Shown in pieces: positions 10,568 through 52,704 of a DNA stretch of 64,000 bases. The stretch is from Niebla homalea (Eukaryota; Ascomycota; Lecanoromycetes; Lecanorales; Ramalinaceae). The position numbers and the translations under genes were made by a program. The DNA is taken from assembly GCA_019925105.1 (NCBI GenBank), contig JAHGAU010000001.1, positions 868,001 through 932,000 on the forward strand, written 5' to 3'. Under the pieces are notes generated by a model that was not told where the DNA came from, ran no database searches, and was given only the letters and a program-made list of their open reading frames with translations. Position 1 is the first letter of the stretch; each line of letters begins with the position of its first letter.

Positions 10568-10757
10568 TGTCAGGGTTCAAGGGTGTTAGTAGCTCAGGAG
10601 TGGGCCCGGGGTTAATCCGGTACCCAGGAGTGTTACCGACTGGGTATATTAGGGCCTTCAGCCCCTTCATTCCTACACCTCGGTACTTTAATGTCTTTAA
10701 TTATATATAATATACATTTTACCTTTTAACTACCTTAAAGGGGCTTATACTTTAATA
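10568..10757 (+). repeat. G2 5' LTR (190 bp)
   Basis: Starts TGTCAGGGTTCAAGGGTGTT and ends ACTTTAATA, the RIP form of CTCTAACA. The left half keeps CA and TG; the right half is converted. It lacks about 26 bp present in the 3' LTR. Confidence 0.85.
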
Positions 10758-14134: not shown

Positions 14135-14225
14135 GATTTCCTTTTAAAGTTATATTTATCCATTTTTAAATTATAAGCTTTAAAAATTAAAGGAGTATAT
14201 TATTAAGAACTTAAAAAACGGATTT

Positions 14226-14475
14226 TGGAAAGGGGGAGAGCATGGAAGATACCAAACTTGCGGATAGGTGTATGGAGGAATGGAAACATTAAAAGGGCTA
14301 ATTAAGGGTGGAATCGATTCATATATACTTTAAAAAGAAAAAGTATAACGGATTACTATAATAAGCAACCTATACCTTACCAACTTATATAGGGGCTGCG
14401 GCCCATCTTCAATTGTACTCTATTGCCACCTGCTATTTCATCACTTTTGCTCTTTCCTTCCTTCCCATCTTTTCT
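14226..14475 (+). mobile_element. 250-bp mobile unit, copy 2
   Basis: Same unit and orientation as 13362-13611, here flanked by GATTT (14221-14225 and 14476-14480). It interrupts the RT of G2 just after the degraded ENLKNGF region. The RT frame resumes after the unit with the stretch leading to LYINYYSINAITK. Confidence 0.78.
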
Positions 14476-17400: not shown

Positions 17401-17721
17401 TATATATTACGTTTTATTGGGCCTAAAAGCCCTTTAAAATGGCTTTATAGCTCTTTAAAGCTATTAAAGCGACTATTATTGATATTATTTACTTATATGG
17501 ATTATACGCCCCTTTATTAATGTAAATTTAATGTATAAGGTCAAAAGGTGGAAAAAATATTTTCAAAAAAGGGTAAATCGCAAAAAACGACACTTACCCC
17601 GGAACCCCCCCGACGAAATCGCGTTTTAAGGCCCATTACAGGGGCCACCGTTACGATCCTACCCCTATATGCTTACACTAGTTACCCGGCCACCGCCACG
17701 ATACTACCCCTATAATTCTTA

Positions 17722-17746
17722 TCCCTCGCTTTGCTGATATGGCAGC
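17722..17746 (+). repeat. Left terminal inverted repeat of the PiggyBac element
   Basis: All 25 bases match the reverse complement of 19851-19875, although CA and TG occur inside it. Such conservation stands out in RIP-mutated DNA. Confidence 0.85.
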
Positions 17747-19850
17747 TATGGCTTTAAAGGGTAAAGCGTCGATTTTGAGCCAATTATAGGCTTTATATAT
17801 AAATTTAGGTGAGCGGGCCAGGTCTTAATACCCCCTAACGCTTTCAATCCTATATCAATTAATAATTATGGATAGCATCCTAATACTCTTACGTTTTATA
17901 TATATAACGGTTTTTATATGCGCTATAAGAGTAACCTTAAGACGTTTAAACGGGTTTAACTTTTTATTTAACGTTTATATTTATTTATCGTAATATTAAA
18001 TGGTTCCGTTTAACCTTCCTATATATAATATACGTTCGCTTTTTATTTAAATAAACTTATAAATATATCGGTATTAACGTCTTTAAATTATTATTATTAT
18101 AATTATAAGGCCGTTTACGAACCTATCTAGTTAAATTATAAATTATCCGAATAATTATAAGTCTAATAAACTTACTCCGCTCCGTTAAGGACTTAAAATA
18201 ATCGATTTTAAAGAGAAGCTATATATTAAAAGCGGCCGTATAAATAATAAAGTAAAATAACTTTTATTAATAATAACGATTGTTATAATTATCGCATAAA
18301 TACTTTATTCGCTATTAAGTATTATTATTTAAGTTATTTATATATTTATTATAATTAATAAATGGTTAAGGGAAGGCCAATATAATACCGTTTAAACCGA
18401 AGTAATATAAGGTTTCTAGGATATTTTTACGACGATAAGGATTAAAGAGCTATAAGTATATTATTACTTTAATTAAGTAAACCGTTATTATTATTATAAC
18501 GGTATTGTTGTCTTATTAGGTAAGTAATATAATATTAACATTATAGGTAACGGTCCGGAACCTCCAGTATTTTATTTTTTAATAAATCTGTTTAACGGTT
18601 ACCTATAAAGGTAATATTCCTGAGTTTATTTTTATAGTACCGTATACTTTAAAATTAAATAATTTAAACTTTAAGAACAGCTTTATCTTAATAAAAAAGT
18701 TATTAATAAAGACCACGTACTTCTAAGGCCGTAATAAGGCCTATATAAGCTCAATAACCACCCGTAACGTCTCTGGTAATATACCCTTTTTGTGGCTTTT
18801 AAGAATACCCTTAATCCTAATAATTTTAAACGTAAACCGGAAGTTAAAAAGATAATTATTAACGTAAAGTAAATAAATTTTAAAGCTAACTCTTACGGCT
18901 TTAACGGCGATGTTTATAATATACTTATAGCGGGCTTTATATTGGATTAATTGTTTATTTATAAAGACGTTTTATTTAAGGACAATTTATTTACGGTATA
19001 TGTTTTTAAAGTAATCCAAAAAATCCCTTACTTTAATTAAAAAATTATTATTACCCGCGGGGGGATCGGTTCTGGGATTAGAAATCTTTAGGTAAAATTT
19101 AATATTTTATTAACGATTTAGATTTATTACTTATATTATATTAAATTTATTAATAAAATTAATAATACTTTTATAACTTAAACGTCCTTATAGAGTAAAT
19201 ATCCGGAGAATAATTAATATTTATATATAGATCTTAAAGAGTACTTATGCGGGAAATTTAATTAATTCCAATTAATAATATAATACTTATAAATATATCG
19301 ATCTTAACCCCGGTAATATTAATTTATAGGCGGGACTTTAAGGGTATTATACCCTTATTATCGTCGTCGTTATTATTATCGGTTAATTGCTATTATTATT
19401 ATTAAGTAAATTAATCGGAGCGTTTTTTAATTATATTATAATTAATATAAGCGGCTATTTAAGTTAATTGTTAACTTAATATAAATAGCCCAAAATACTT
19501 AAATAAATAAATAAGGTTTAACTCCTTCGTTTTTATCGTTATTAACCTAGGATTATATTATAAAGGTTAATAATTTGGATCCCGTATATTTTCTATACGG
19601 ATTATAAATTACGGGATTGTTAACTTGTTAATTACGATACTTTTAATACTTTCCGGGACGGTATTTAACGCCTTGAAGGCCTTAAATTCATTTACCCTTA
19701 TTATAATATATATATCGAGCTATAAACGTAATAATAATAAATATAATATATAGATTACATAGTGGTTCTTCCATAAACAAATAAAAAAGGGATATTAAGC
19801 TACGGATGTTTATCGATAAGACCTGCTTATATAGGTATAGTGCCCGCATG

Positions 19851-19875
19851 GCTGCCATATCAGCAAAGCGAGGGA
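19851..19875 (-). repeat. Right terminal inverted repeat of the PiggyBac element
   Basis: Exact reverse complement of 17722-17746; similarity continues weakly for about five more bases inward. Confidence 0.85.
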
Positions 19876-20046
19876 TACCCCTTACCCGGCCAGCCAGTAA
19901 CGGGTAAGCTGGGTGGTAACCAAACCTTACTTTAGTTACCCGGCTAATCAGTAACGGATAAAAGGAATGATTTTAAGTTTAAAATTTTTTCTTTTTCAGC
20001 GTACTTATAGGCTTAAAAGTAAGCCTTTCTTAAAGGGGGGGGGTAA

Positions 20047-20262
20047 TATTAAGGTTTAAGGGTATTAATAACTTAGGAGTAGGCCGTACCGGGCCTACAT
20101 CGGGCCAAGCCCGGGGTTAATCCGGCACCCAGGAGTGTTACCAACTAGGTATATCAGGGCCTTCGGCCCCTTTACTCCTACACCTCGGTACTTTAATGTC
20201 TTTAATTATATGCAATACACCCTTTACCTTCCAACCACCCCAGAGGGGCTTGCACTCTAACA
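20047..20262 (+). repeat. G2 3' LTR (216 bp)
   Basis: Starts TATTAAGG (RIP form of TGTCAGGG) and ends CTCTAACA. The inner (left) half is converted while the outer (right) half is nearly intact, the mirror image of the 5' LTR. Confidence 0.85.
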
Positions 20263-20635: not shown

Positions 20636-20855
20636 TGTCAGCCTGGGTGCAGGCATGGTGGTGGTGTTGTATGGAGTGTTACTAAGCCGTTATACGACGG
20701 TGCCAAGACACTATTATAGCGCGTATAAATATTATTACCTGGCCGTACATCTTATACCACTTAATTATTTTATATAAATAGCATTATATTTCTTAAATAA
20801 ATTATATATAATCTATATATATATTATCCACTCTTATACGTCCTTACGTTTAACA
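20636..20855 (+). repeat. Copia 5' LTR (220 bp)
   Basis: Starts TGTCAGCCTGGGTGCAGG and ends CGTTTAACA. The left part keeps CA and TG while the right part is converted. Confidence 0.85.
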
Positions 20856-20856
20856 T

Positions 20857-20868
20857 TTATAAGCCCGG
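20857..20868 (+). promoter_or_regulatory. Primer-binding site, half initiator-tRNA-Met type
   Basis: TTATAAGCCCGG begins one base after the 5' LTR. Undoing one TpG to TpA change gives TTATGAGCCC, complementary to the anticodon stem-loop of initiator tRNA-Met. Several Copia-group elements (Ty5, Tca2, Drosophila copia) are known to prime from such a cleaved half-tRNA. Confidence 0.65.
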
Positions 20869-22563
20869 TATTATATATTATTATAGTTACTTATTTATTA
20901 ATCAATTTAAAAGCGTAATTAATTATTTAAAAAAACTTAAATTGAATCCTTAAAGTTAATATATTATATATAAATTAAAAACAGAGAAGGAATTAAAGAA
21001 TACAATAAATTTATTGTTTATTATTCTTTTATGCCTTTAAGATAAGCTTATATAAAGTTAAATTTATTACCTTAAAAGATTAAGACTTATAATTTACCGT
21101 TATTAAAGGTAAGGCTATTGGGTATTACGTTTAAGAATTTATTAACCTCGTTTTTACAATAAAATTAATAACCTTAAATAAATTAATAAAATTAATATAA
21201 CCTATTATTATAACGGATAAAGCGATTAACTTAAGGGTATTATTAACTTATAAATACGATTTATAGGTATAAAAGTTAGAACTATAAAAATAGAAAAAGT
21301 AATATATATCTTTTATTAAAATTAACGACTTTATATTCTTAATAATTAATAAGGTAAACCTCGTTTATTTTAAAAACGTAAATTATTACCTATAGAATTA
21401 TTTACGTACTTTTAAAATTAAATTTATACTTTCAAATTCCGTTTACTCTTTAATAATAAAGAAAGAATACTATAAAATCATAACGGGACCTAATTTTCAT
21501 TAAAATGCTAAAATATAACTTAATAAATATATTTAAGTACTTATAAAAGTTAAAAGTAATAATATCCTTAAAGTACTTAATAAGAAATAAACATACCGTA
21601 ATTTTATTAATATAATTAAGAAATAAGCGTTTATATTAATATAGATTTATAAATTCAGTATAAATAACTTAACCGACTTTTTAATCGCTTTTATTAATCT
21701 TTAAAAGTAATTTCGAAATTATATATAATATAATAATATAAAGAAATTAACTCCGTTTTATTTAGCTTTTATTATTAATAAAAATTAAAACAATATTAAA
21801 AAAGATAATAAGCTTATTTTTAAGGGTAAAAGTATTAAGTTAAGAAAATACCTATATAATATTAAATATTAATTTAGTGAATATAATTACTTACGTATAA
21901 ACCGATTTAATCGACTTATTAACTTTAAACCCGATCTTATACTTAAAAGATAAGTAAATAATAAACCTAAAAATATTAAAATGAAAAAAAAAAAGTTATT
22001 TAAGCTTTTAAGAAATCCAGAAACTTTAAGTTTAAATAAAATAGTTTATTTATACCGGTTCAAAATAACAATAATAACTTTAATATATTTAATATAGGAT
22101 AAAAATTATATATATTATAATTGTTATAGATTTTAGATTATAGTTTAAGCTTTTATATTTATAACGAAACGATAAAAGACCAGTTTATTAAAAAGATAAA
22201 TAAAAAGAATAATATTGTTATTATTAAAAATAATAATTTTAAAGTTATTGCTTATAATAAAATTAAGGTAAATATTAAAACCCTTAAAGGTAATAACTTT
22301 ATTATATTTTATAACGTTATATATATACCTGACTTTATAATTAACGTCGTATTTAATACTATCCTTATAGATAAGGGTATTTATTTTAATATTAAACGTT
22401 ATTACCTTTATAATAATAAATAAATAAGAATATTAATTAAAAGGATTACTAAATACTACGTACTTAAAGATAATATTAAATAGTTTAACATAAAATTTAT
22501 AACCGGTAAAGTTATCGTTAAATTAATAACTATAAATTAATAATACCAACTTCATATATACTT

Positions 22564-23289
22564 TGATTGATTGATTGATTTATATACGAGTCGAGTTACT
22601 TTAAGTTAATTTTAGCGTTCTATAATATTAGTAATTAAGTTACGGTTATTTTAATATTTATATTTATTTTAAACTTATTGCTTTAATTTTAAAAGGGAAA
22701 AGGAAACCGTAATCGGTTAATTTAACCTTAACTTACCCTAGATATTAACCCGATTTAAATAAAAACCTTTCCTTTGTAATTATTTATTTTAATATTACGA
22801 CTGAGTTTTTACGTTAATTTAATTAAGATTAATAATTATTTTAAATCCTTAATTTATTATTTCCGTTAAGAATTTTTTATTTTTTAACGTTATAATCTAT
22901 AATAAAAATTTAATAATAATATTAAGCTTAATTTAAGGAGACGGCCCCGATTATATAACTTTATTTCTTTTAATGTTTAAACTTTACTTTAAGTACTTTA
23001 TTATATAACTTTTTAAATTAACCTTACTTAATCTTAATTTTAACTTTTTAACATTAAATCCTTATAATCCCTTTTTACCGGCCTTATATAGCAATTAGGC
23101 TTATTTAAGGTTAATTACGGGCACCGGTAAATTATCGGATATTTATTATTATTTTATTTATATTAATTACGTAATTTACCGGATAGGGTTTAAAGGCTCT
23201 TAGCGAAACCGTCCCTTACCCTTAAAATGTTTAACCATTCTATAGTTTATCTTCTGCACTTAAAAATGCCATTCCGCCACGCTCGCCCC
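22564..23289 (-). mobile_element. SINE-like non-autonomous unit with LINE-type tail (726 bp)
   Basis: Flanked by near-identical 13-bp repeats (TTCATATATACTT at 22551-22563, TTCTTATATACTT at 23290-23302). Read on the minus strand it begins AAGGGGCGAGCGTGGCGGAA, where GTGGCGGAATGG resembles a tRNA A-box. It ends in GTATATAAATC plus AATC repeats, like both LINE copies. The last 45 bases are also alignable to the LINE 3' end, from GAACGC onward. No coding sequence is visible. It may be a SINE mobilised by the LINE, or an internally deleted LINE derivative. It splits the Copia element. Confidence 0.65.
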
Positions 23290-25126
23290 TTCTTATATAC
23301 TTTATTAATAAAGTAATATAGAACCTTCCATAAGTAATTAAAAAGGTAAAGATTATTAATAATATTAAAGCCTTAAATATAAGCAATTATAAAAACTATA
23401 TTTTATTAAAAGTTTACCGGATTATATCAAGATCCTTATATAAAGTAGAAATATTAATAAAGTTTTTCTTTCAAATTATTTATAACCTTATATAAATAAA
23501 TATAATAATAAATTAAAATTAATAAGTATCATATATTACTTATTTTAAATACGATTTTTAATTAATATATATTTAAAAATTTATTTTTTTTGCTTTAAGC
23601 TTTATATAAGTTTAAGTAATTATTAATTTTATAATTTAAGAATTTCTTAAAAACCCTTAAAAATTTAAGCTTAAAATAAGTCCCGGAAATCAAATATCTT
23701 TTTATTAATAATTGTATAATGGTTTTTTTCTTTATAGATAGATAATGTTATCGTTATTTACGATTATAAGTATAATTAAAAAGTAAATAACTTTTAAAGT
23801 AAGTTCTTTAAGGTTTACAAAATAAGAAACTTAAGTAAAATAAAATAATTCTTAGGTATAAGGATAATATAAGATTAATTAAATTAAAAACTCCGTTTAT
23901 ATTAAGATAATTATATTAATAAGTTTATAATAAAATTTAACGTTATAATAAGTCGTATTCTTAAAGTATTTTTACGGAATATTAAAATTTTTATTAAGAA
24001 TACCGGATAAGCCTTATTTTAAAAAATCTATATATATTAATAATTTATCGGCTTTATTAATTTTACGGCCGTTACGACCCGGACGGATATTACGTACTTA
24101 ACGTTTAAATTATCTAAGTTCTTTATAAATCCGTTAAAATAATATTTAAAAGTAGTTATAAAAGTATTATAATATTTTATATATATTAAGTATTATATTA
24201 TTATATATAACGGGAAAATTATTAATCTGTATACCGTTTTTATAGTATTTTTAAATGCGTTATTTATTAATAATTTTCGTAAAATTATATTTTTAAACTT
24301 TTTAAAGGCTTAATTGATTAAAAAGTAATAAAGTAAATGATAATAATAATAAGCTTTATTAAAGTTAAGTTCCTTAATTTTATTTTTATAATAAAAGAGT
24401 TAATATAATAAAACCGTTGCTTTAAGTTAATTATATTATATTTATTTTATTTATTAAAGATTAAATATAATAATTTTTAAACGATCCGTATAATTTAAAG
24501 GATAAACTTATAATTTATAATAAAATTCCGCTATATAAATATATATTATTATTAACTATAATAAGAATATTAGAAGAGAATGATTAATATTAAGTATATA
24601 TTTATAATAAAGATATTAACCGATAGCCTTATAAAAACCTTATTACTATAAAAATATAAAGAATTTATAAAATTCTTAAAACTTAAAGATAATAAGCTTT
24701 AAAATCCCGTATTTTAATATAATTTAATAAAACCCCGGATATATCGTTTTTAAGAAATTTAATTCTTAAAATATTACGATTATAAACTAAATATATAAAA
24801 ATTTTCCGGGTTCATTTATTTTTATAATTTTATTAATTTTAACTTTTTCTTAATATATACTTAATAATAATTACTTCATAAGATTATTTAAGTTAATATT
24901 TAAAGCTTAATTAAGTATATATAAAGCTCCGGAGTAATTTAAAATATAAAGGTTTTATTATTATTATTGTTTTTAAGGTTATTAACTTTTTTAAACTTTT
25001 TAATTTTTTAACTTTAAACTCAAAACGTACCTTTTACCCGTAATAATTACGGTATATTAATAATTAAGAAGTAGGTATTTAGGATCTATATTATTACCGT
25101 AATAATATTACGATCCTAAGAGGGTA

Positions 25127-25349
25127 TATTAGCCTGGGTATAATAAGTATAATAATAATATTACATAAAGTATTATTAAGCCGTTATATAACGGTATTAA
25201 GATATTATTATAACGCGTATAAATATTATTACCTGGCCATATATCTTATATTACTTAAGTATTTTATATAGATAGCACCATGCTTCCTAGATAGATTATA
25301 TGCAATCCACATATATATTATCCACTCTCATGCATCCTCACGTTTGACA
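25127..25349 (+). repeat. Copia 3' LTR (223 bp)
   Basis: Starts TATTAGCCTGGG (RIP form) and ends CGTTTGACA. Its outer right half is intact while its inner half is converted. Confidence 0.85.
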
Positions 25350-25994: not shown

Positions 25995-26148
25995 TGTGAT
26001 GGGTACAGGGCAATGTATGGACAAAGTGGTAAATGTATGAATGAATAATCGTTTGTCCTGAAGGCACAAACGACTAACTATGTACTTGTCCTATCCTCAA
26101 GACCTACACCTAAGGCTATGTCCTATCAATATGCACATGCTCGTGACA
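25995..26148 (-). repeat. Probable solo LTR (154 bp)
   Basis: Starts TGTGATGGG, ends CTCGTGACA, flanked by GTTTT and GTTTA (one mismatch). It contains GTATGAATGAATAAT, the shared LTR motif, which suggests minus orientation. TGTCCTATC words relate it to 13957-14134. It is almost free of RIP. Confidence 0.65.
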
Positions 26149-27143: not shown

Positions 27144-29530
27144 TGTGAAAGCCTTAGTAAATGTATGAATAATATAATGTATAAATGATGATCTATCTAG
27201 GTGCATGGTGGTAAGCTATGTACAGTAAGTGCGGGCGCTAAGCAATGCGGAACCCGTTCCGCGGCATAAATCAGCTCTGCTGAGTCCTTAATAATTTGCC
27301 ACTTATAAAAAAAGCTTATACCCTATAAGCAATATTAACAACAAAAATGTGTATATTAAGGGGTTCCGGGGCCTTATATGGGCCTATCTTAACGCCGAGC
27401 ATACGCAGGGGTGATAATGTAAGGTAATTATTGGTAAATAATGCATAATAAAGTGAAAAACTCGAAAAAATCGACCCAGGCAATTATCGCAATCGCACCC
27501 GGGAAATAGTCGTGGTTTTTCGAGATTTTTAAGCTCTGAATTGCTTAAAAACGATATCTCCGAGGTATTGCCGGGTTAGGTAATAACGGATTATTTATAA
27601 TCCGTATCGTGGATAGCTCCGTGGTAATAAACTTCCTAAAGGTATTAATGTAATGTATTACGGGAGGGGAATTCATTAAAGTAAATACGGTATTAAATCT
27701 TTATTAGTCCGTCTGATTTATATAGTAATTAAATAGAGCGTTGTTAATTTATAAATACGGGTGTTATATCGTTCATTAAAGTAAGTATTTTAGGTAATAT
27801 AAATATTGCAAATACGACGTTACGGCTTTACTCTAATGGTCTTATAGGTAATTTAAAGATAAGTTCTTTAAGGACTATAATAAAGCCTATAAATAAAACT
27901 CTATTTTTATTATTACCGTCGTCGTCGTTTAATTCGATATTACCGTCGCTATTAATATAATATACCTGCTTTTCCTCTTTTTTAATATATTCATTAAGAC
28001 CTCCCTTTTAAGGGTAAAGGTTAAACTTATATTTCTCCTCCTTTTTTAAGTTATGGTAACGGTATTATTAACGTTTTAACTATTGCTTTTATTAACGAGG
28101 GTTATTAAATAAGCATAATAATAAATAGGGCTTATATATATTAAATTAATTATACTTAACGTCGTTAATTTACTAAATAAAATCCGTAATTATTACGGTA
28201 ATTATAAGTATAAAGAGTTACGTCCGAAGGTAGACGTTAAAGTAGTTATATATAGTTATTACTTAACCGGCCTTAATTAATAAGCTTAAAGTATATTTAT
28301 TAAGAGTAATAATTTTTTAGATATACTCCTTAGGGTCTTTACGGGCACGGATATTACCAATAATATAATGGAGTAATTTAAGCTTTTAAAGGGTTACTAT
28401 AGGTAATTCTCTGAACCTCTTCTTAAGCTCCGTGTCAGGGGCTCAGGTAAGGTGGTTCTGAACATGAGTGAATTCTAACTATGTAGGTATAGTATATAAA
28501 GGGATTACAGATATTATACAGAGTATTTAGGACGCTTTACCCAATAAGGTAAAGTGTCCAGAATAAGCGAAGCGCTAAACCATAAAGCCGCATACACACA
28601 GTTGCATGCTATGGGCAAGTGATGGTTCCCTGACACTCCGCGTTTTAAAGATTACGCTTTACGTATATACCGACTTTATTAGCCTTATTTAATTCATTTA
28701 TAGATTAACTCTTAACTTTACCTTATAGGCATTAATCGATATACCGTAAATTAACCTCCTTAATATTAAGACGTTAAATAAATAAGAAAACGTTATGGTA
28801 GATTCTTGAGTTACTCGTATATATTACCGGCTTAATACTGTTATTATCGGGGTTAAAGAAGCCAATATCTTTAGGCCTGAATTTAGGTATATTGGCCCTG
28901 GATACTGCAGCTGTAGGTGCAATTTGGATTAACGTTAAAAGAACCTGGAATTGCTTTTCGCTTAAGGTAATTTATGGTATATCGTCTTCACTAAATATGG
29001 ATTCAAGGGGTAAATTTAAGGGTGATGGTGGAATGGGTACGTCGTCAGGTGCGTCATTTTTAATACTCACGTATTCTGCGGCCTTTATACTATGTTCTGC
29101 CCGGATACCGGTACGTCGTTCTAACTCGATTAATAAAGGCGTTAAAGTGTGCCTTAAAGGGTACCGTCTATTACCTATAATTGCGACGTTTGAGAAATAA
29201 GATGGAGTAAATAAAGTAGATAGGTAGAAAATAGGTAAAGGTTAGATTCCTAATTAAAGGATTTATTAATGGAGAGACCCTCGGTATTGCTGCCGCGTTT
29301 ACTCGTTATTTGAAGTATACGTCTCTGGTATTATTACTATAAGTACCGTAAGATAGATGGACTCGCTATTGTTATTAAATTGTGAAAGCCCTAGTAAATA
29401 TATGAATAATATAATGTATAAATGATGATCTATCTAGGTGTATGGTGGTAGGCTATGTACATTAAGTGCGGGCGCTAAGCAATGCGGAACCCGTTCCGCG
29501 GCATGGATCAGCTCTGCTGAGTCCCTAACA
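27144..29530 (-). mobile_element. Pol-less LTR retroelement (2.4 kb, about 2.2 kb without insertion)
   Basis: 150-bp LTRs at 27144-27293 and 29381-29530 start TGTGAAAGCC and end CTAACA (right copy). TTATT is repeated outside but lies in a TTA microsatellite. Minus orientation follows from a primer-binding-like sequence read leftward from 29380 (TTAATAACAATAGCGAG), matching 50755 onward in the related element. The internal stretch around 27,470-27,590 (acccgggaaatagtcgtgg) recurs reversed near 52,200-52,310. No pol domain was found; a plus-strand frame at 28892-29200 (102 codons) matches nothing I know and opposes the element. A solo LTR sits at 28433. Confidence 0.75.
28433..28635. repeat. 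Solo LTR (203 bp) nested in the pol-less element
   Basis: Starts TGTCAGGGGCTCAGG, ends TTCCCTGACA, with CTCCG duplicated exactly (28428-28432 and 28636-28640). Very little RIP. Confidence 0.85.
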
Positions 29531-30081: not shown

Positions 30082-31580
30082 TGTCATGGTTCCAGCAGGC
30101 CTTGCTCCCAGCCTCGGCCTACTTACCCCATGAGTACTAGCTCCTTGGCACCCACACTCATATAATGGGTGCATCCTGTACCATAGATACCACCATAGCT
30201 ATTATTCATTCATTACTAAGACTTACCTACTCCAGTACCCTGATATAATAATAGCTATCCTTGTATATAAAAGGTTAATTATAAGCCTCTTAATACTCGT
30301 ACTTTATTAAAAATAGCATTATTAAAGTGATACGACGTATACTTTAATTAATAAGTTAGCCGGCCAGTTAATCGGTTTTACGGAAAAACGTATTAGTTAA
30401 TTAATAAACCATATAATAAGTACGTATTACGAGCCTATAAAACGTTAATAACTATAGGAACCAAGAGTAAAAACCCTTATAAACCGGAATAATTAATAAT
30501 TAAATAAACGGTTAATATTAATAATAATTAAGTTAATAAAACTTAAAATAAGGATAAAAAAAAGAATAAGGATAATTAAGTTAAGAAATTTTTTTTTAAA
30601 ACGATACCATAAATAAACCTATCGTTAAAAATCCCTTAAGCCGTATAATAAAAATATATACTTAATTACCCTACTTATAATATAGGGCTTAAATTAATAC
30701 CTTAAGGTTAACTTTATGAATAAGCTTATTAATATTTTAATTATAATATTTAAGTAGATTAAATATTAAAAGTAAGCTTACTACAATAGTATTAATTTCA
30801 TTTTAAATTTTTAATTAATTAAATAAATTAATTTCCGACTTTTATCTTATAAAACTTACGGTAAATATATTATTATTACGTTATAAGTTTATAAGACGTT
30901 AATAGCTGTAAAACCCTTAATAAGGTAATTTATAAGCCGGAATAATTTAAGCGGTTAAATATTAATAATAATATAAATAAGGGTAAAACTATAAATAAAA
31001 TAAAAGTAAGGAAATTTATATCTATAAGTACGATAATAATATTAAGGGTAAAAGTTACTTAATTAATTTACTTACGGCTATTTCGTTAATCGCTTTAATT
31101 TAATAACGTCCGTTAATAGCCTTATATTAAACTCCTTTTTAACAGAAAGTATACGACTTAACTTTACCCCGGAGATTACGTTAATTAACTTAATTTTAGT
31201 CGATTTTTTCACCCCTATATAGTCGATTTTTTCACCTTTTTCCCCCTTTTTTTAGGAGCGTTTTTTACCTAGGTTTTTAACCCCTTAATAATTAACCACC
31301 ACGCTTGTTTAAGGTGTCAGTTATATACTCGGTGGTTTTTTAAGGTTATACCCAGGTCTAATAAGGGTGGTTTTAATTTAAGTAACAGGAGCTTACCGTC
31401 GTAAAGGGGGGGATTATATTATGGTTCCAGCAGGCTTTGCTCCCAGCCTCGGCCTACTTACCCCATAAGGACTAGCTCCTTGGCACCCATACTCATATGA
31501 TGGGTACATCCTATACCATAGACACCACCATAGCTATTATTCATTCATTACTAGGACCTACCTACTCCAGTACCCTGACA
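30082..31580 (+). mobile_element. Miniature LTR retroelement (TRIM-like, 1.5 kb)
   Basis: Two 164-bp LTRs (30082-30245 and 31417-31580) start TGTCATGGTTCCAGCAGG (left copy) and end TACCCTGACA (right copy). TTAAG is duplicated at 30077-30081 and 31581-31585. A purine tract AAAGGGGGGG precedes the 3' LTR at about 31,403. TAATAATAGCTATCC directly after the 5' LTR resembles the presumed primer-binding site of G3 (42542). The 1.17-kb interior has no coding domain. Structure fits a terminal-repeat retrotransposon in miniature, dependent on enzymes of another element. Confidence 0.85.
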
Positions 31581-32560: not shown

Positions 32561-32722
32561 TGTCACGAGAATGCGGTATATATGGTGATAAAGTAAAGTA
32601 TGTATGAATGATAAGTAGCTATTTAGCAATGAAGGTGGGAAATATGAGTGTACGCGCCAAGCACCGGAACAAGGTAAGCCCGCTCCGTGCCAAGGAATCC
32701 TCCTATGGTCTGTACCGTGACA
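32561..32722 (-). repeat. Solo LTR (162 bp)
   Basis: Starts TGTCACGAG, ends TACCGTGACA, with ATAAT on both sides (32556-32560 and 32723-32727). GTATGAATGATAA, the shared motif, suggests minus orientation. CA and TG are retained throughout. Confidence 0.8.
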
Positions 32723-34620: not shown

Positions 34621-34836
34621 TGTTAGACTGCAAGCCCCTCTGGGGTGGTTAAAAGGTAAAGGGTATATTGCGTATAATTAAAGATATTAAAGTACAGAGG
34701 CATAGGAGTGAAAAGGCCGAAGACCCTAATATACCCAGTCGGTAACACTTTTAGGTACCGGATTAACCCCGGTTTTGGCCCGGGGTAGGCCCGGTAAGGC
34801 CTTTTCCTAAGCTATTAATAATTCTAAACCTTAATA
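34621..34836 (-). repeat. G2-family 3' LTR in reverse orientation
   Basis: Matches 20047-20262 reversed. The outer left end keeps TG and CA; the inner end (CTAAACCTTAATA) is converted. Confidence 0.82.
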
Positions 34837-41200: not shown

Positions 41201-41413
41201 TTTTAGGGGCTTTTTATCTGAGTAGGTAATAAATTTAATAACATAATAAAGACATAAATAAAAAAGATTTTTCTTTTAACTAAATTTCGAAATTTCTTCA
41301 TTACAGTTAAAAAGTAAATACTTCTAAGTAGTTATTCATAATAACATATTGCTTTCAGTAAAATCGATTTCCTTAACTTTTAATATAGTATAATCTGCTT
41401 TTATAATACTTAT

Positions 41414-41426
41414 ATATTTATTATTA
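41414..41426. repeat. Left target-site duplication of LINE copy B
   Basis: ATATTTATTATTA recurs exactly at 56304-56316 directly after the AATC tail, 14.9 kb away. Confidence 0.85.
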
Positions 41427-42393
41427 GAATGGCGACGAACAAAGGGACCCCAGAGGTCCAAAACGATGCGTATATGCATAGCTTTAATAACAGTGAGGGA
41501 AGTATATTAAGTGCGATAAATAGAAGTAACGTAATGGTTAAAAATAAAGTAATAAACGGGTAAATAACCTATATTAATAGAAACGGCGATAATACGTACG
41601 GGTAATATAATAATAATAAGTTAGATAACGCTTAAAATAAGTAAGGAAATTAAGGTTAATAAAATACGCGTATTAAAACGCATAAAATATATAATAATAA
41701 TACGGAGGTAATAAATAAATAAAAGGGTAAAAAGGCCGGTATAATATTAATAATAAAGGGTATAAATAGGGGGAAAAGGCGGGAAAACCGCGGTAAAAAT
41801 ATTATTAAAGGTATATAAAAAGGAAATAAAGCTAATAAGGAAAATAGGACCTTAAAGGACCAAAAATAAAAGGCAGAAATAATATATCGCCCGGTAAATA
41901 AAAATGAAAAAACAATAAGGAAAGTAATAAAAACCTTAAAAGGACTCCTTATAATAAAGTGGAAAAATATTATATTAAAGACTTAACCGATATTATAGAT
42001 TAAATTAAAAAACGTAAAAAACTTTTATATAAAAGTAAAAATAAAATTAAAGGAAACAGAGTATTTACGGGGCTCTTAAAGGGCGGGAGCGAAAGTATTA
42101 ATAAAGGGTAAAAACGGCGGTTTAAAGTTAAGGATATAAAGCGAAAATATAAAGGCGGTAACCCCTTAAATAAAAAAGAGTTAAATAATAAGGATAATAA
42201 AGGGGGTATTTATAATAAAGAATAAAAGGATAACGGAGGAGAGGGTAACTATATTAAGGAAGGTAAAGATAATAACGGTCCGCCTATTTAATAATAAAAA
42301 GAAGAACGTAATTATAGAAATAAACCCGTTATAATTAATAAAGGCTTTTAAAATAATAACGGAATTATTAATAAAATAGATTATTACGGTACG

Positions 42394-42539
42394 TGTTATA
42401 TGCAGCATGCATATATGGGAGCATTGATAGGTGTAGGACACCCTTTGTACGTAGAGGACAGGCATCCTTATGATGCTTTTATCCTTTAGGTAGAATCATT
42501 ATTTATATATTATTATACTTTTTAGTTTATATACCAATA
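42394..42539 (+). repeat. G3 5' LTR (146 bp)
   Basis: Starts TGTTATATGCAGCATGCATA and ends ATACCAATA. The outer (left) half is intact; the inner half is converted. Confidence 0.88.
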
Positions 42540-42541
42540 AA

Positions 42542-42554
42542 TGGTAGTAATAGC
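42542..42554 (+). promoter_or_regulatory. Presumed primer-binding site of G3
   Basis: TGGTAGTAATAGC starts two bases after the LTR. TGG is the expected complement of a tRNA CCA end. Related sequences follow the 5' LTRs of the pol-less elements at 30246 and 50755, and at 29380 reversed. The tRNA is not identified. Confidence 0.5.
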
Positions 42555-43311
42555 TATTTATATTAATATTATATTAACGTATATCGTAAGATCCGTTAAT
42601 ATAAATTAAAGCATTAATTTATTAACTATAACGGATACTTCCTTTATAGCGGTATTAAAAGTATTAACTTTATATTCTTTGGAATACCGCCTTTAATTCG
42701 CTTTTAAATATTTTCAAAGAAAGATTAAAGACGGTACTATAAAGAAGATATATATATTATAAGCTTTTTAAGTATTACCGGATCTTAATATTATTACTTT
42801 AATATATTAATTAAACGTTTTACTAAAATCCGGTAACTTAATAGCCGCGGTAATCCTATATTTAATTTTAAAAGGAATTATTTAAATAATCGAAAATAAC
42901 CAGCGATTAAATAATTTAAGAATTATATTTATTATAAATAAATTACTTCGGTTAAAATCTTTTAAAACTATAAAACCTATTACTTTTCTTAATCCAATTC
43001 TTAAAAACTGGATTTTAAACCCTTTAATACTTTAATATAATTTATTATACTTTAAAGATACTTTATTATCGTTATAATTATTATATAAATCGTTATTAAC
43101 CTTAATAAATTTAAGTAGGTTTAAATTATATCGATATGGTTAAAGTCCTTAAAAACTTAATACCGTAAGACTATTATTTCTATTAAATAGTTTTCTATCT
43201 TTATAGTAATTATTAAATTTATTTTTTATATTAACGTTAATATTACGACGCTCTTTTCCGGTTTTAAATATTAAACTGGAATCCGAACTTAATAAATTTA
43301 ATATATTAAAA

Positions 43312-43358
43312 TTAAGTTTATTAAACTTAAGTTTATTAAACTTAAGTTTATTATATTA
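43312..43358. repeat. Short tandem palindromic repeat
   Basis: TTAAGTTTATTAAACTTAAG-type units repeat about 2.5 times with a 17-bp period; each unit is nearly self-complementary. Confidence 0.75.
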
Positions 43359-46300
43359 AATAAAAGGTATTTCTGTTAAAAAAGCAATTTTCATTTAATT
43401 TATTAATCCGCTTAATTAATTAAAAATAATAAGTTTTATTAAAAAGTAAATAATATAATTATAGGGTATAATTTAAGAATTAATTCCCGCTGCTATATAA
43501 AGTTAATAATAAAATAATCTTAATAATAATTTATTCTTTCCTTTTAATAACGTAATATAATTAATAAAAGGCTTATAGTTAAATTAATTAATAAATTTCA
43601 ATCCCGGTAACGTTGGATTTTTCGACCCTTTTTATGAAAATAAGTCTTTTAATATAATTTTTATAATTAAGTATTCCGGGAAGTATATTTTTTTCCGGGA
43701 TATATATATTTTTATTAATTAATTAAAGGATATTACTTAAATAATAGATATATAATTATTATAAAATAATTTATAATTATACTTAAGAAATATTACTTTA
43801 AAATAATATACTATAAAGTTATTAAATACCAAAAAACGACTTATTAAATATAATAACGGTTTAATTAAATAGACTTTTTAAATTATTATTAAATTTAAGT
43901 TACCTTAATAAATTAACCTGAATATTCTGGTTACCGAAAAATATATTATAAATAATATTTTTCAGAACCGGGAGCTTTATAAATATACGTAGATTATTTT
44001 ACGGGTTATATATATGTTAAATTTTAATAATATTTAAAATTAACTTACGCTTATTTATAGCGGGTTAAACTTAGAATTTTAATAGAATCTATAATTATTA
44101 ATTATAATTATTATTATTAATAATTATTTTAAATTTATAAATAAATTTAAATATAATTAATAAATTTACGTTATTAAGTATTATATACCTTTATAAATAT
44201 ATCCGTAAAATTATAGAATAAGTATATTATTTTAAGATAATCGGAATTTCATAGAAAATTCAGAAGCCGGTCCTTTTTCTTAATTATTAACGTTATTTTC
44301 TTAAGTATATAAATAGAATAAAGCTTATAATATATATCCTTAAAAAAAGGATAACGGTAATTGCTTTTAATATCGTAAAAAAAAATATTAACGTTAAACT
44401 AAGGAAAATCAGAGCCTTTAAAAAGAAAGTCCGATTTTAAATACTGAATACGCTATATAAAATAAAGGGTTAATTAAGCCTTTATACTTAAAAATAAAAA
44501 AGAAGAAAATACGCTATTTAATAAAGAAAAATTAAAAGGATCTTAGGATAACAATAACCTTATTATAGAAGAAATATATTTTATATATTAATTTTCCGTA
44601 CGTTATTAATATATTAAATACGTATTAAAATACTTATTATAAAATAAACTTTTTACTTATCTTAAATATAATTATTATAAATTAAAGGGAGTAAACTTAA
44701 GTACTTTTAAGGTTTCTCCGTTAAATTAACGGATTTAATCCGTTAATAATTAATATATATAAGCTTAATAAATTAATAATATATTACTTATAATTATTAA
44801 TTTTATTATAATAAGGAATATATACCTTATAAGTTTTACCTTTAAAGTATATTAATATATTATAAATAAAGTCTAATTTACCCTTAATTTACCTATAATA
44901 AACTTCTATATAAATAACGGGTATCTTATTATAATTATTAATCGTAATATTATATTCTTTTAAATTTTAAATTTAAATTTTAAAATCCAGAAATTATTTA
45001 AGTTAATTCCGGTTATAAACGTTAATAATTTTAAGTTAATTATTAATAAATTTATAATATTTAATTTATTCTTTTTAAATAAAAAGAATATAATATTTAC
45101 CTTAAGAAAAATCTCGGTTAAAATTTATTTAATACGTAATTTATTTATTAATATTTTAATTGTTACCGATATTATAATTCTTAATAAAATAATAATTAAT
45201 TTTAATAATTAAAAATATATTATTAATACTTATAAAAATATAAATATTAAAATAATTACTTTTATAAAGGAAATAACGTAATTATAACGTATAATTTACG
45301 TAAAGTAATAAACTTAAATCTTAGCTTATAATACGGTATAAGTATTAATTATATATTAAAAAAAAAGACTTTAAAAGAATTATTAAAGTCCCGGGATTTT
45401 ATCTTTAAACCGTAATTAATACCGTTTTATAATCTTGGATTTTAAAATAATATATTTATATATATCGTTAATTTAAAAATATCGGTTATTTAAATTAAAA
45501 ACGATATTAATTAAAAAGTTAATTTATTATATAAAATAAAATTTAGAATTTTATATAACTTACCTTTATAACTTTATTATATAATAGTCTTAAGTTCATT
45601 AATATTATTTATTATTTACGGATAGAAAACTTAAAAATCTAAGTTATAAATTTATAAAGTTACTATAATAATAATATTAATCCTTATATTCTCCGGAATA
45701 ATTTTTATAATTTTTAATTATTTAAAGACTTACTTAAATTAATTATTATAAATTAATAACTATAAAGAATAAGTTTTATTTAATAACGTTAAAATTTATA
45801 CGTATAACGGAAATACGTAAATTTAATTAAGTAATATTATTAAAGAATTTAGTAATATCTTTAAAAATAATAATATTATAATTAATATTCTAAAAAATTA
45901 AAATATATTTATTAACCTTTAATTTAATATAATTATTAAACCTAAAAGAATATATAATATTAAGCGTAAAAATTAAAAGATTATAAATTAAGCCTTAAAT
46001 AAAATATATAATAAAAATAAACTATATTAATTTATATAACTTATAGAATTTTTATATTTTATTTTTATTATTTAACGCGATATCTTAAACGGACGTAAAG
46101 GTTATATTATAATTAATATTTAATTACTTAATAAAATTGCGATTTTTAATTTATATTTATTATTATTATAATAAGAAATAATTTCTTTAATTATAAATTA
46201 TAAATATATTATTATAGTTAATATTTATAATTATTTTTATTAATTTCTTATACGTAAATTTAATCGGTATAAACTCTATATTATTTCTTATAAAGGTTAA

Positions 46301-49175
46301 GAGGAATCTTTAATTATATTAATAAGTTTTAAAGGTAATTTTTTATATATATAAAAATAAATAAATAATATATTATATTTAATATAAAATTTTACGTAAA
46401 TATTTATAAATAATATAATTATTTTTTATTATTTATTAAAGGAATATATTATTTATTTATATTAAGTTTTTTAAATTCTTAAAGATAAATACGTAAACCT
46501 TTTATTAATAAAATTATTTATTAATTATTTTATAATTAAACTTTTTAATTAATAAATTAATTTTTTAAGAATATTTACGCTTAATAATAAAATTAAAACT
46601 ATATAAAACCTTAAATTTCTTAATTTATTAAGAAATTTTAAAGTCTTCCTTAATCTTATAAATTAATTACGTACTAGAATAAAAAATTATACTTAATATA
46701 TTACCCCGCTTTAAATACGTAAAACTTTTTTTTACCGTAGATTTAAGAAAAGTAGATCCAGAGTATATTAATTTACGTTATAAATAAAAAATATCTCGGA
46801 TTAAGTTTATATTTATTTAAAAAAAAATTATACTTTTAAAGATTTAAAAAACGCGTTTTTAAAACCGTTATTTCTTATATATTATAATCTTAATTAACCC
46901 TTATTTACCGATATTAATATATTAAAGGAATTAAATATTACGGCTATAATATATTATATTAAGGATAATCCGTTATTTTATAATATTACGGAAATTAATA
47001 ATTTATTAAAAATTATACGTAATAAAGTATAATTAATAATATTCCTTAATAAAAGCTTAAATATAACCGAGAAAAATTATTGGTTTACGGAGTTAAAGAT
47101 TACGGGTATAATCTGGGTTATACGTAAAATTAAATATTTAATTAAAATGAATTATTATAAATTTAACTATATAATCTTTATAAATTATAACGTAATTATC
47201 GGTATTTCTAGATAAATAAATTTAAAAACTTCCATAATTAATAAGCTTAATTTCCGTTTAATTTATATATTATAATATTTATTGATATTTAATATTTTAT
47301 TACGTTATAAGTCGGATTTAATAAATACCGTTCTTAATATATTTTTACGATTAATTAATAACGCGTAAACTTTATTTATAGAAATCGGAATTCTTAATAA
47401 TATAAATAATAATAAATTAATTACTTTTTATTATATTTATATTTTAAATAAATTTAAAGGATAAATTAAAGAAAAATATATAAAAAATAAAATATAAATA
47501 AAATTATAAAAAATCTTAATAATTAAGGAAGAATTAAATTTATAAGATATAAAAATTAAATTACGCTTTATATTAAAGGACGGCCTTATTTATAACTTAA
47601 AATCCGTTAATTATTTATTACGATTATATATATTTAATAAACTTAAAAAAATAATTTTTCAATAAGTATATAATAGTTTATTATATAATAACTTTAATTA
47701 ATCTTATAATAAATTAACGAACTTAATATATTTATTTAAATTAAATAAATAACTATAGAAATATATTATATATTACCTTAAATATAACTTAAATTAAATT
47801 AAAAAATATATACCTTATAAATCGCTTTAATCAATTTTAAGCCCGTTAATTATCTTTTATATTATTTACTTAAATTTTATTATCGCTTTATTAAATTAAT
47901 ATAATTACGATATACTCCTTATTATTATTAATAAATTCTTTAAACGGGTATTTTTACTCCTTAATAATATTAAATATAAGGTTAATAATTGAGTAAAATT
48001 ACTATTAATAAAATTAATAAAATAAAGTTAAAGTATTCTTTCTAATATTATATTAAATAAAAATCGTAAATTTATTTCCGTATTTTAGAAATCTATATTT
48101 AAAGAAATAAATACTTATATTCTTACGTTTAATATATATTACCCTTAAATTAACAATTAATTAAAATAAATTAATTAAATAATTAAGATTATATTACGTT
48201 ACTTTATAATTACGTATTTAAATTATAGTTAAATAAATATTATCCTATATATTTAAGGTATTTTAAATAATTTAAAGTTAACGTTAATTAAATTTACTTT
48301 AAATAAAATTTATTATAATATAAATATCTATAACCTTTTAAACCTTTTAATAACCTCTTTAATTCTTAAGTATAATATACTTTAATTATAAAATTATAGA
48401 AAAATATAAAATACGCTAGAATTTACGTAAATAATAGTTAAATTCCGGTATAATTAAAGTTATAAGTTAATTTAATTTAATATTAATAATTTAGTTTATT
48501 TAAAATTATAATATAAATATAATATTTTTAATATTAAAAACTATAAGCTATATTAATAATACACTAAACCTTTCCTTATTATTAAGAAAATTAATTATTT
48601 TATATATAAACTTAAATTACCCGTTAATATAAAGATAATACCGGTTATTTTAATTAATATACTTAAGTTAATTAATAATTTAATAAAAGACCCTTTTAAT
48701 AAATAACCCAATTGTAACGCGCCGTTTATACTTAAAGTAGATTCCGAGAATAAAGAAAAGTATATTATTAAAAGGATTATTTATAAGGAAAAAAATAATA
48801 AATACTTAATTAAATAAATTATTTAAAATATAGAATATAATAATAAGCTTCCGTTATTAAAATTATATTTAAACTTATTATATAAATTCTATATTACGTA
48901 TCCTGAATTTAATAACGTTATCGTTATTTACCGTAATAAACTTTATATTACTTTATTATTAATACTTATTAAAGTAATACTTTTATTATCTACCGGTATT
49001 CTTTATACGCTCCGTTTTAAGCGTAGTTACGGCCGCTTCCGTAAAATTGGGTAAGATTTTAACATAAGAATATAGGATATAGGGAGTATAATATATTATT
49101 GGGTATTAATATTTACATTGGTATATTAAGGTGAACGTTATTGTAAATAGTAGCCTTTTTTCTTTTAATAGTATT

Positions 49176-49321
49176 TATTATATATAATATATATATATAG
49201 GAGTATTAATAGGTATAGGATACCCTTTATACGTAGAGGACAGGCATCCTTATAATGCTCCCATCCTTCAGGTAGAATCATTATTCATACATTATCACAC
49301 TTTTTGGTCCATATACCAACA
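49176..49321 (+). repeat. G3 3' LTR (146 bp)
   Basis: Same length as the 5' LTR, ending ATACCAACA. The first 44 bases differ from the 5' LTR almost only by TG to TA and CA to TA. The outer right half is intact. Confidence 0.88.
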
Positions 49322-50571
49322 GTACGTAAACTATAAAATAAGGATATTTTCCTTAATATAACGTTATTAAAAATAAAAGAAAACTTAAAGAAATTTAAGG
49401 CTTAAATTAATAAAGGAAAGTATAAATTAATTAAAGTTTTAAGGTAATTATTTACCGTTATAATAAATAAGATATATTTATTATGTTTTATAAAAATAAA
49501 AAAAAAGGTTATATTAAAGAATATAGAAAAAGAGAATACGGTTCTTTATTTAAGGTTTAAGATCGTTAATTATAGGCTTCCTCCGGTAATAAAAAGACTT
49601 AACTCCTTAAAACGCGTAAAAAGGTATTTTACTATTATATTAAACGTAATATTAATAAAAATATATAATAATATTTTAAATAAAAGGATTATTAAAAAGG
49701 GATCTTTTAAAATAACTTAATTATAAAATAAAACGGCGGATATTAATTAATATTTTAAATATTAAAATTATAAATATATTATTATAAAGTACTTTAATAT
49801 TATAAAATATATAATTTATATTAAAGGTTATAATACCTATAAGTATATAAAATTAATAATTAAAAGATTTATAAAAAACGTACTTAAATACGTTACGTAT
49901 AATAAGGAAGAATACTTAATATAGGATTCTAAATATATAATAAAAATTAAGGAGATTAAACGTAAAGAAACCCGGATAACCGTAAAAATCCAACGGTATA
50001 ATACGTACAGAATTAATTTAATAAGCTAATTAAAAACAGCCTTAAAACGTAAACTTAACCAATTAAATAATAAAAGGTAAATAACGGTAACGGATAGAAT
50101 AAAAAAAAGAAAGCTTTTCGTAATCCCGACTTTAAGGGCCGGCCGTTTTACGGCTTTAATAATAACCGGGAAAATACCAAGTTAAAAAACGCTTAACTTT
50201 AATAAAAAGTTAATAATTTAAATAAGTATAAATAAAAAAGCTTTTATAAAGGTTAATATATAATATATTAACGCTTTTAAAAGTAATATAATATAATGTC
50301 CGTAATAAAAGAATTAAAGTAATAATATTAATATTTAAGTTTAAAGAAAATTAAAAACATTAATATTATAATAATATAAAAATTATTATATAATTTATAT
50401 ATATATTTATTTATTAACCCGGAAAAGGGGTTTTATTTAATTTTTAAGGGGGATAAAATAATTAAAATATACTTCTTTATAAATAAGCGGTTTAACGTAA
50501 ATAATTAAAATATTATTTATTACGGTAAAAACCTTTATATATTCCGTATTATAAAAAAAAGAAACTTAAAG

Positions 50572-50754
50572 TGTTATGTGCAAAGGCCATTGCCAAGACC
50601 TTTACGGGCACTAAGGCCTAAAAGGGTATAGCGGATACCCGGTGCTTGGCGCACACTTATATTTACTTCTACATAGCACTTATATAGATTATTATTTATA
50701 TACTTATTACCCACTTTTACAATACATTTACTTATTACCACCTGGTGTATAATA
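50572..50754 (+). repeat. 5' LTR of the pol-less element (183 bp)
   Basis: The outer left half keeps TG and CA (TGTTATGTGCAAAGGCC). The inner half (GATTATTATTTATATAC) is converted compared with the 3' copy. Confidence 0.85.
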
Positions 50755-52521
50755 AATAATAACAATAGCACGAATTCTTTTACTTAACAATTAATATAAA
50801 GCTTACGATTATTAACCCCTGCTTTCTAGTTCTTTTATTAAAGTATTAAGTATAATATTATTTATTTAATATCGATCCCTTTATTGGCTATTTAATAAAT
50901 TATTAGTCTTACTTATATTACTTAATTATTATAATATTAAGACGCGGAAAAAAAGGATTTCCTTTAATTTTAACTTTAACTTAAGCTTTAATATCTTTAT
51001 TATTACCGTAATATAACCTTTCGTTCCTTACGGAAGTAATTAAAAGATTAATAATAAGTTAATAATCCCTTATTAACGACGTTAAAGCCTTAATAAACCG
51101 TATAAATATATTTAAGACTCGTTATAAGTTAACTATATAATAATAATAACGTAACCCTTACTTAATCAATAAGTTATTTAATCCAGAAAAAGAGAGGATA
51201 TATTATATACCCCAGAAACGTACGGCCCTTAATAAGTCTCTTAAACTTTATACCCTTAAACCTTTAAGATAAACCGTTAATATATTAAGGAACTCGGCTA
51301 TTTTAACGGTATTAATAACGTTTATAAGTTTATTGATAAACTTTTTATTATTAATTTAATTAAGTTATTATCCTTAATCCTTAAAAATATTATTATTTAT
51401 TTTTTAAAAAATAATAATAATTTCTTAAAAAAAGCTTATAATTAATAAACGTCCGAGCTTTATTTTAATACCCGTAAAACTCTTTAGAACGCCACTTTCT
51501 TAATTCCTTTTAATTCTGAACTTAAAAAGCGCTTTAATACCCCGGAAAATTAACTTTTAAAATAATTAACGTATATAAAATATACCCGGAAAGATATAGT
51601 TAATTAAATAAGTGCCACCGCCTTTATTGGGTAAGTAATAATGCTTTATTACCGTATTAACGGTTAATATACTTAAAAATAGTTATTATAAATAGCCTTT
51701 AACCGATTTAAAAAGTTTTTTAAGAATACCTTATAAAAACCGGTAAACGGCTTACTTAAGGATTTTATTGATAATGTCCGTATACGGTAATTAAGCTGGT
51801 ATAAACAGTGGTAATATTACCGGAAGATAAGACCTTAGTATAGTAAAAAGACTATAAGATACGTTTAACCCCGTTAAGCTATTAATAACTATAGGGCTAA
51901 TAAGAGTAAATTTAAGTAAAGCGATAAATACTGCCCCGTTAATAAAGTTACTCGTAAAGTACTCCCTGTACCGGACCCCTTAAAGGTTTACCACCTACGT
52001 GGTAATAATAGTAATACGGACCTTACCCTCGAGTCCAACGATAAAATTAAGCTTTTACTATAAGATAAGCAAGTCGGTATATATTAGGTAGATAATTAGG
52101 CTTACCTTTATAATAAAAAGGGTAATATATAGTCCTTTCGCAACCTATATTGGAATAATACCGTTACTACGGTTATTAAGAGTTCGGTTATTAAGAGCTT
52201 AGGATATTCACCCGGCTAAACCCCGGAGATTATGGATTTAAGCGATTCAGTACACTCATAAAACACTTAAATCCACGACTATTTCCCGGGTAAGATCGCG
52301 ATAACTGCCCGGCTTACGGTTTTTCGGTTTTTTAATTGGTTTTTCGACTTTATTATTATTATACCTTCTTAATACGCCGTTACCACGTATTGTTTTTACT
52401 TCTTTAATTTCCTCGGCGCTGGATATACTTATTCTCTAGCCCCGGGGCCGCTTTTATCTATAAAGTTATCGACCTCGCCGTCGTTATATAGGCGTAGCAT
52501 TTTTATCTTTTTTAATATATT

Positions 52522-52704
52522 TATTATATATAAAGGCTATTATTAAGACCTTTATAGGCATTAAGGCCTAAAAGGGTATAGCGGATGCCCGGTACTTAAC
52601 GTATACTTATATTTACTCCTGCATAACACTTACATAGATCATTATTCATACACTTACCACCCACTTTTACAGTGCATTTACTTATCACCACCTGGTGCAT
52701 AACA
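52522..52704 (+). repeat. 3' LTR of the pol-less element (183 bp)
   Basis: The inner left half is converted (TATTATATATAAAGGC). The outer half is intact (GATCATTATTCATACAC to GCATAACA), mirroring the 5' copy. Confidence 0.85.

Follow-up and report, generated by a model that had tools for sequence, protein, structure and literature searches.

How near to the end of a repeat can repeat-induced point mutation (RIP) convert DNA, and what sets that limit? The question is raised by a 64,000-nucleotide stretch of the Niebla homalea genome (contig JAHGAU010000001.1, positions 868,001 to 932,000, forward strand), to which we refer as the window, and in particular by the long terminal repeats (LTRs) of its retrotransposons. 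A preliminary description of this DNA had claimed that in the LTR pairs of a Copia element, of two elements named G2 and G3, and of a pol-less element, the inner part of each LTR is RIP-converted and the outer part is spared, so that the 5' and 3' LTRs are mirror images of one another. We aligned the members of each pair and scored transitions by which LTR carries the mutation; the switch is visible in all four alignments, and the limits that had been given for the G2, G3 and pol-less LTRs hold. The LTRs concerned are as follows (window coordinates, strand, description):

~20636..20860, + strand: Copia 5' LTR; spared on the outer (left) side and converted on the inner side
~25126..25349, + strand: Copia 3' LTR; converted on the inner (left) side and spared on the outer side
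10568..10757, + strand: G2 5' LTR; outer part spared
20047..20262, + strand: G2 3' LTR; outer part spared
34621..34836 (right limit approximate), - strand: LTR at the outer end of a reverse G2 copy; outer end spared
42394..42539, + strand: G3 5' LTR; target-site duplication (TSD) GTACG
49176..49321, + strand: G3 3' LTR; TSD GTACG
50572..50754, + strand: 5' LTR of the pol-less element; TSD TAAAG
52522..52704, + strand: 3' LTR of the pol-less element; TSD TAAAG

In the Copia, pol-less and G3 pairs taken together, the left half is mutated in the 3' LTR at 55 sites and in the 5' LTR at 2, and the right half at 7 and 41 sites, respectively. The G2 pair behaves likewise, with 11 (3' LTR) versus 3 (5' LTR) mutated sites on the left and 1 versus 15 on the right (Fisher p=9e-5), and the reverse G2 LTR at 34621, also said to be spared at its outer end, retains 5 of the 8 RIP-type dinucleotides located in the outermost 40 bp. 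The impression of ‘halves’ arises because the length of these LTRs (146-225 bp) is, as it happens, close to double the sparing distance.

Conversion of LTR pairs across the genome

We extended this alignment of LTR pairs, which the preliminary description had put forward as the appropriate check, beyond the window by searching a 50.6-Mb assembly (52 contigs), using as queries both the 5' and the 3' LTR of the Copia, pol-less and G3 elements. Each search yielded 127-264 LTR candidates, of which the best 40 were scored; 54 pairs were listed from these by position, and 41 pairs were analysed (14 Copia, 16 pol-less and 11 G3; 38 outside the window and 3 inside it). The LTR retrotransposon hallmark, TG...CA ends and a 5-bp TSD, characterizes the pairs analysed, the TSD being exact in 35 of 41 (12/14 Copia, 12/16 pol-less, 11/11 G3). 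In all, 1,233 of 1,325 directional transitions across the three families match the mirror: the 3' LTR carries the mutation in 702 of 736 transitions of the left half, and the 5' LTR in 531 of 589 of the right half. Outside the window alone, the counts are 647 (3' LTR) versus 32 (5' LTR) on the left and 51 versus 490 on the right. The direction is that of the mirror in 41/41 elements and individually significant at 0.05 in 37; the four below significance are all pol-less, one of them with counts of 2:3 and 0:2.

We take the mutator to be RIP because of its transition bias, its preference for CpA and its confinement to repeats. The 1,325 transitions stand against only 33 transversions, which, with all gap columns, are left out of the transition counts, and the mutated share of informative positions is 0.72 for CpA, 0.24 for CpC, 0.24 for CpT and 0.16 for CpG. 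In the 82 outer flanks of the elements no leakage of RIP was seen within 150 bp; the CA+TG fraction is flat there, at 0.16-0.20 across 0-150 bp. Such a flat value is what earlier converted DNA would give, and the claim that the flanks had been converted earlier stands for most of them. In 12 of the 82 the G+C content (GC) is above 0.38, and there the 60 bp closest to the element are not more heavily converted than the DNA farther out (CA or TG versus TA 104:48 and 131:92, respectively). A genome search returned two PF00145 C5 DNA methylase loci, at C1:2433855-2434730 (L109) and C17:163120-164064 (L110). The BAH domain was absent from the reading frames examined at both loci and no DIM-2-like gene was seen, with introns limiting this search. 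For one locus the best named relatives are hypothetical proteins of Usnea, Lecanora and other lichen-forming fungi (51-54% identity over about half its length), and three unnamed relatives of the same locus reach 77-79% identity. Within the window, composition switches suddenly in 57000-64000, from AT-rich converted DNA (GC mostly 0.13-0.32) to DNA with a GC of 0.45-0.51 and a CA+TG fraction of 0.74.

The distance dependence was read from family alignments, in which columns with CA or TG versus TA were grouped into 20-bp bins counted from the LTR's outer end, the binning that had been suggested at the outset. The mutated fraction is not flat: it climbs with distance through 0.11, 0.13, 0.25, 0.24, 0.44, 0.62, 0.84, 0.64, 0.73, 0.95, 0.89 and 0.93, reaching a plateau of about 0.9 past 180 bp; the dip at 140-180 bp arises mainly because the pol-less family is less heavily mutated. 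The fitted half-maximum lies at 89 bp (95% 80-105, bootstrap over the 41 elements), and by family at 87 bp for Copia, 79 bp for G3 and 141 bp, a poorly constrained value, for the pol-less elements. RIP had been suggested to stop 50-100 bp short of the junction with unrelated DNA; that distance agrees with our half-point, but in place of a sharp stop we find a graded shoulder. CA and TG sites read from the LTR edge, tabulated without a formal test, gave no consistent strand direction.

Truncated LINE copies and other repeat ends

A separate line of evidence comes from a long interspersed nuclear element (LINE). Its 5'-truncated copy L024, which carries an 11-bp duplication (TGATTTATCTT), was seen by eye to be unconverted mainly in the ~90 bp beside the truncation, and longer copies to be converted where L024 is unconverted. 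The prediction, set in advance, was that unconverted versions of the L024 interior sequence should adjoin truncations. Besides L024 we examined 20 copies from 40 matches to that sequence, and placed their truncation points by a strict RIP-blind extension, two earlier approaches having been dropped since they ran on into AT-rich DNA. Fifteen copies stop at frame positions 352-462 and six continue past 800, and intactness drops as the homology past the site lengthens (Spearman -0.82, p=6e-6). The 15 truncated copies are converted at 97 of 233 sites less than 100 bp from their own ends; at distances of 120 bp and above the count in these copies is 174 of 220 (p=3e-16), and the six longer copies are converted at 240 of 273 sites. 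Outside the search query the difference holds: 9 of 47 sites are converted within 90 bp of a truncated end versus 89 of 95 in the longer copies (p=1e-19). Truncated copies are therefore spared at their own ends where longer copies are converted, which argues that the edge of shared homology, and not the end of the element, sets the limit. Per 20 bp from the truncation the converted fraction is 0.25, 0.07, 0.50, 0.64, 0.66, 0.62, 0.64, 0.73 and 0.81, with a half-point at 40-60 bp, nearer than in the LTRs.

Several of the truncated copies (L024 at 1549-1915 and several of L112-L122) end near frame 364-378, and these are perhaps a short family, resembling short interspersed nuclear elements (SINEs), that uses the LINE tail; five others end elsewhere, at 391, 408, 420, 455 and 462. 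The LINE family (query window 55703-56303) is seemingly very abundant, with 1,519 candidate places, of which 40 were scored.

Junctions can also be placed by host homology, blind to the state of the insert, and we did so for 13 of them (nine breaks in the homology of Copia copies and four in the window). On the insert side CA+TG make up 0.54 of CA+TG+TA at 0-40 bp, 0.25 at 40-80 bp, 0.22 at 80-120 bp, 0.16 at 120-160 bp and 0.08-0.11 beyond 160 bp. The host side shows weak sparing, 0.17 in the first 80 bp versus 0.08 at 80-240 bp; by another count, whose site definition favours the interrupted copy, 11 of 24 sites are intact at 0-40 bp versus 3.1 expected.

End sparing is not specific to LTRs: it is seen also in a DNA transposon with terminal inverted repeats (TIRs), in LINE-type inserts with (GATT)n tails and in other inserts. 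The further features of the window on which this account draws are:

17720..19877, unstranded: TIR DNA transposon in G2; 31-bp TIR and an apparent TA target site; spared at both ends and converted between them
22565..23288, - strand: LINE/SINE-like insert in the Copia element; (GATT)n tail at left; sparing at the right end, and at the left end through the tail repeats alone
41399..56303, - strand: probable old LINE with its tail at 56303; left limit set where homology with L017 starts
27144..29530, + strand: weakly converted LTR element from a RIP-blind search; 150-bp LTRs, TSD TTATT; mirror trend in the right half only, left 2:2
30082..31580, + strand: LTR element from a RIP-blind search; 164-bp LTRs, TSD TTAAG; mirror trend
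25995..26148, unstranded: probable solo LTR, a short TG...CA insert in a LINE fragment; CA/TG-rich; TSD matching at only 4/5 positions
32561..32722, unstranded: probable solo LTR, TG...CA; TSD ATAAT; CA/TG-rich

The TIR transposon has a second copy whose left end is similar to that of the first, and its left end gave only five matches in the genome, too few for a profile. The probable old LINE is split by G3 and the pol-less element, and CA/TG is weakly enriched near both of its limits. Over 19 ends in the window, some of which were sought because of a CA/TG island, the CA+TG fraction falls from 0.63 (0-40 bp) through 0.43 (40-80), 0.31 (80-120) and 0.17 (120-200) to 0.13 (200-400). By eye, about 18 of the 30 CA/TG-rich islands in the AT-rich part coincide with an element end or fall within a short insert, and most of the remainder lie inside two weakly converted elements.

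Proposed homology sensing near the end of a match

Conversion depends on position in several element classes and on where homology ends, and no leakage into flanks is seen; these points the data support directly. We consider it quite likely that they reflect RIP with an edge exclusion zone at the ends of shared homology, due to a need for matching DNA over tens of bp beyond the target cytosine. CpA cytosines on either strand would then be converted efficiently only some 50-100 bp inside the stretch common to the copies, and their exposure would taper smoothly toward the end of the match, to about one-tenth of sites in LTRs. Since the DNA outside both LTRs is unrelated, their outer parts would be spared and their inner parts converted, and the mirror follows. 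The preliminary description had likewise suggested that the pattern may reflect the length of homology needed near the end of a match. The half-points of 89 bp in LTRs and 40-60 bp in LINEs support that interpretation, and the LINE comparison upholds its core, that the end of homology sets the limit; the length requirement itself, and with it a homology-sensing step as the cause of the edge zone, we infer, bearing in mind that an enzyme footprint fits the same data.

The paired or recognized state may be unstable within about one half-unit (~90 bp, from the LTR data) of the end of the match, in which case the minimum RIP target would be ~180 bp. If the need for matching DNA on the outer side holds on both sides, then targets below ~180 bp, going by the LTR data, should for the most part go unconverted. 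In the window the short inserts at 25995-26148 and 32561-32722 are both CA/TG-rich, a state that recombination to a solo LTR could also produce. In Neurospora crassa, according to one report, 155 bp can trigger RIP, 220 bp gives substantial RIP, and the number of mutations tracks length between 220 and 520 bp (PMC4858203). The same report describes C-to-T mutation across shared homology, as in Niebla, and a partial-homology construct in which the distal ~130 bp has few mutations; our half-distance of 89 bp, by contrast, comes from natural LTRs. Twice 89 bp falls within the 155-220 bp Neurospora minimum (PMC4858203), which is suggestive and not proof, and this agreement between species is weakened because the LINE distance is shorter. 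We tentatively entertain the idea that the edge zone and the minimum homology are one quantity, a cooperative sensing unit of ~180 bp matched on both sides of the target; it may well prove wrong, its odds being lowered because LINE truncations give a half-distance of only 40-60 bp.

The rival explanation that comes closest to the data places the limit in the enzyme: pairing would reach the end of homology, and the methylase complex or its chromatin unit (about a nucleosome) could not load or act within tens of bp of it. The same profile is predicted, recognition and mutation have been described as separable at the base-pair level in Neurospora (PMC4858203), and the data at hand do not separate such a footprint from pairing. 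Alone, however, it does not account for the reported minimum homology being near twice the LTR edge distance, and we take it seriously without thinking it probable. The two LTRs might instead act in cis as a repeat-linker-repeat unit, with mutation centred on the internal ‘linker’ and fading outward through the LTRs. That would explain the mirror inside LTR elements, and single-copy DNA between close repeats is reported to be strongly mutated in Neurospora (PMC4858203), but the TIR transposon, the LINE-type inserts and the truncated LINEs are spared at their ends without having LTRs, that is, without the two close direct repeats that this mechanism requires, and we regard it as very unlikely.

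Recognition or protection of true element termini, whether by way of integrase or transposase sites, of terminal chromatin or of selection for functional ends, would suit the facts that most edges examined are real termini and that TG...CA and TIR ends are largely intact. It is hard to reconcile with sparing that shifts with truncation points inside the LINE, unless these truncations are the termini of separate short families, or with the finding that a given U3 or U5 sequence is converted in one LTR but spared in its partner; we judge it most improbable. Patterned queries might also have selected copies with the same pattern, given that the best candidates were scored in each search and that the listed pairs joined matches of the 5' query to matches of the 3' query. 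We therefore took, from six tables, all same-strand neighbouring matches at element spacing and asked which query fitted each match better: the 5' pattern lies at the 5' position and the 3' pattern at the 3' position in 53 of 56 pairs. Three LTR pairs from a purine/pyrimidine (RIP-blind) search, with counts of 10:3 and 3:13 (p=0.003), the junctions set by host homology and the LINE sites outside the query all agree, and we give an artefact of ascertainment or alignment hardly any credence. An account by copy number, in which RIP would increase with the number of copies, was dismissed on reasoning rather than on counts: there are two LTRs per element plus solos, yet outer ends are spared.

Several points weigh against an edge exclusion zone as we describe it. 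Absolute fractions may be inflated, because the copies were retrieved by their similarity to sequences of the window that were already patterned, and the sets assembled regardless of pattern comprise few elements (three de novo LTR pairs). Three of the 56 neighbouring pairs misfit, namely two reversed Copia pairs and one pol-less pair (C8) with the 5' pattern twice; the reversed pair at C1:986359 is a junction of neighbours, since this LTR has a TSD-matched partner on its other side, but the second, on C22, has no such explanation. At one of the 13 host-homology junctions, L024, sparing is absent from the first 40 bp on the insert side. The sparing distance also varies, from 40-60 bp at LINE truncations to 141 bp, a poorly constrained value, in pol-less LTRs. 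As to other fungi, published accounts place most de novo RIP of Zymoseptoria tritici in the outermost windows of transposable elements (TEs), mainly LTR elements (PMC10294615), find slightly more RIP toward the alignment ends of the Stagonospora X0 repeat (PMC2621366), and describe leakage past repeats in still other species (PMC7296669, PMC7882544).

The same sources hold parallels to Niebla. RIP in Z. tritici is reported to be limited to repeats, with no flank leakage seen in the sections available (PMC10294615); the excess at TE ends there may possibly arise because spared ends retain CpA that is still mutable once interiors saturate, so that the new mutations may reflect spared sites. In Stagonospora nodorum, RIPCAL analysis of long non-tandem ribosomal DNA (rDNA) repeats found conversion above all in the centre of the repeat (PMC2621366), which resembles the pattern described here. 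For the crapaud element of Podospora, most solo or fragment LTRs are said to have few RIP mutations and full copies to be bimodal, which the authors suggest is due to small size; no position dependence within LTRs is described in the available sections (PMC10787394). An edge zone predicts such dependence in crapaud LTRs, and the expected escape of repeats below ~180 bp would help to explain the unconverted short solos. A literature search, mainly of open-access papers, found no description of repeat-end sparing by RIP. In Ascobolus, methylation induced premeiotically (MIP) is coextensive with repeats, a premeiotic recognition bounded by homology that leads to methylation rather than mutation.

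It is still an open problem how intact double helices recognize one another when no recombination takes place, and RIP ranks among the main assays of such recognition. A base-pair-scale edge profile read from genome sequence offers a second, independent measure of homology length that could be compared across fungi with different methylases, and repeat ends serve as a natural ruler of the sensing of DNA matches in the cell. Were the edge zone and the minimum homology indeed one quantity, each repeat end in a RIPed genome would record DNA pairing that does not depend on recombination, and no crosses would be needed to read it. More practically, dates taken from LTR divergence, and RIP indices as well, vary with position in the LTR.

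Solo LTRs and minor features

Ten single pol-less LTRs were scored, four of them with an exact TSD; of these, two are nearly all intact (L089 25/28, L091 24/28) and two are mixed (L094, L097). Solo LTRs are ambiguous because recombination of a left-spared with a right-spared LTR yields the same picture. A further pol-less LTR, L090 (C3:2035992-2036477), is intact at 26/26 scored RIP sites (2 unscored); its left flank matches the left flank of L093 and its right flank the right flank of L096, possibly in a tandem arrangement.

A permissive self-comparison of the window was not used, as chance matches between AT-rich sequences dominated it. CA/TG-rich patches that have no clear element end lie at 35123-35172, 40216-40264 and 31288-31337. 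Finally, direct repeats of 263 bp (13360-13622 and 14224-14485; 88% alike) enclose a weakly converted unit of 1.1 kb, related pieces of which are found in L013 and L025.

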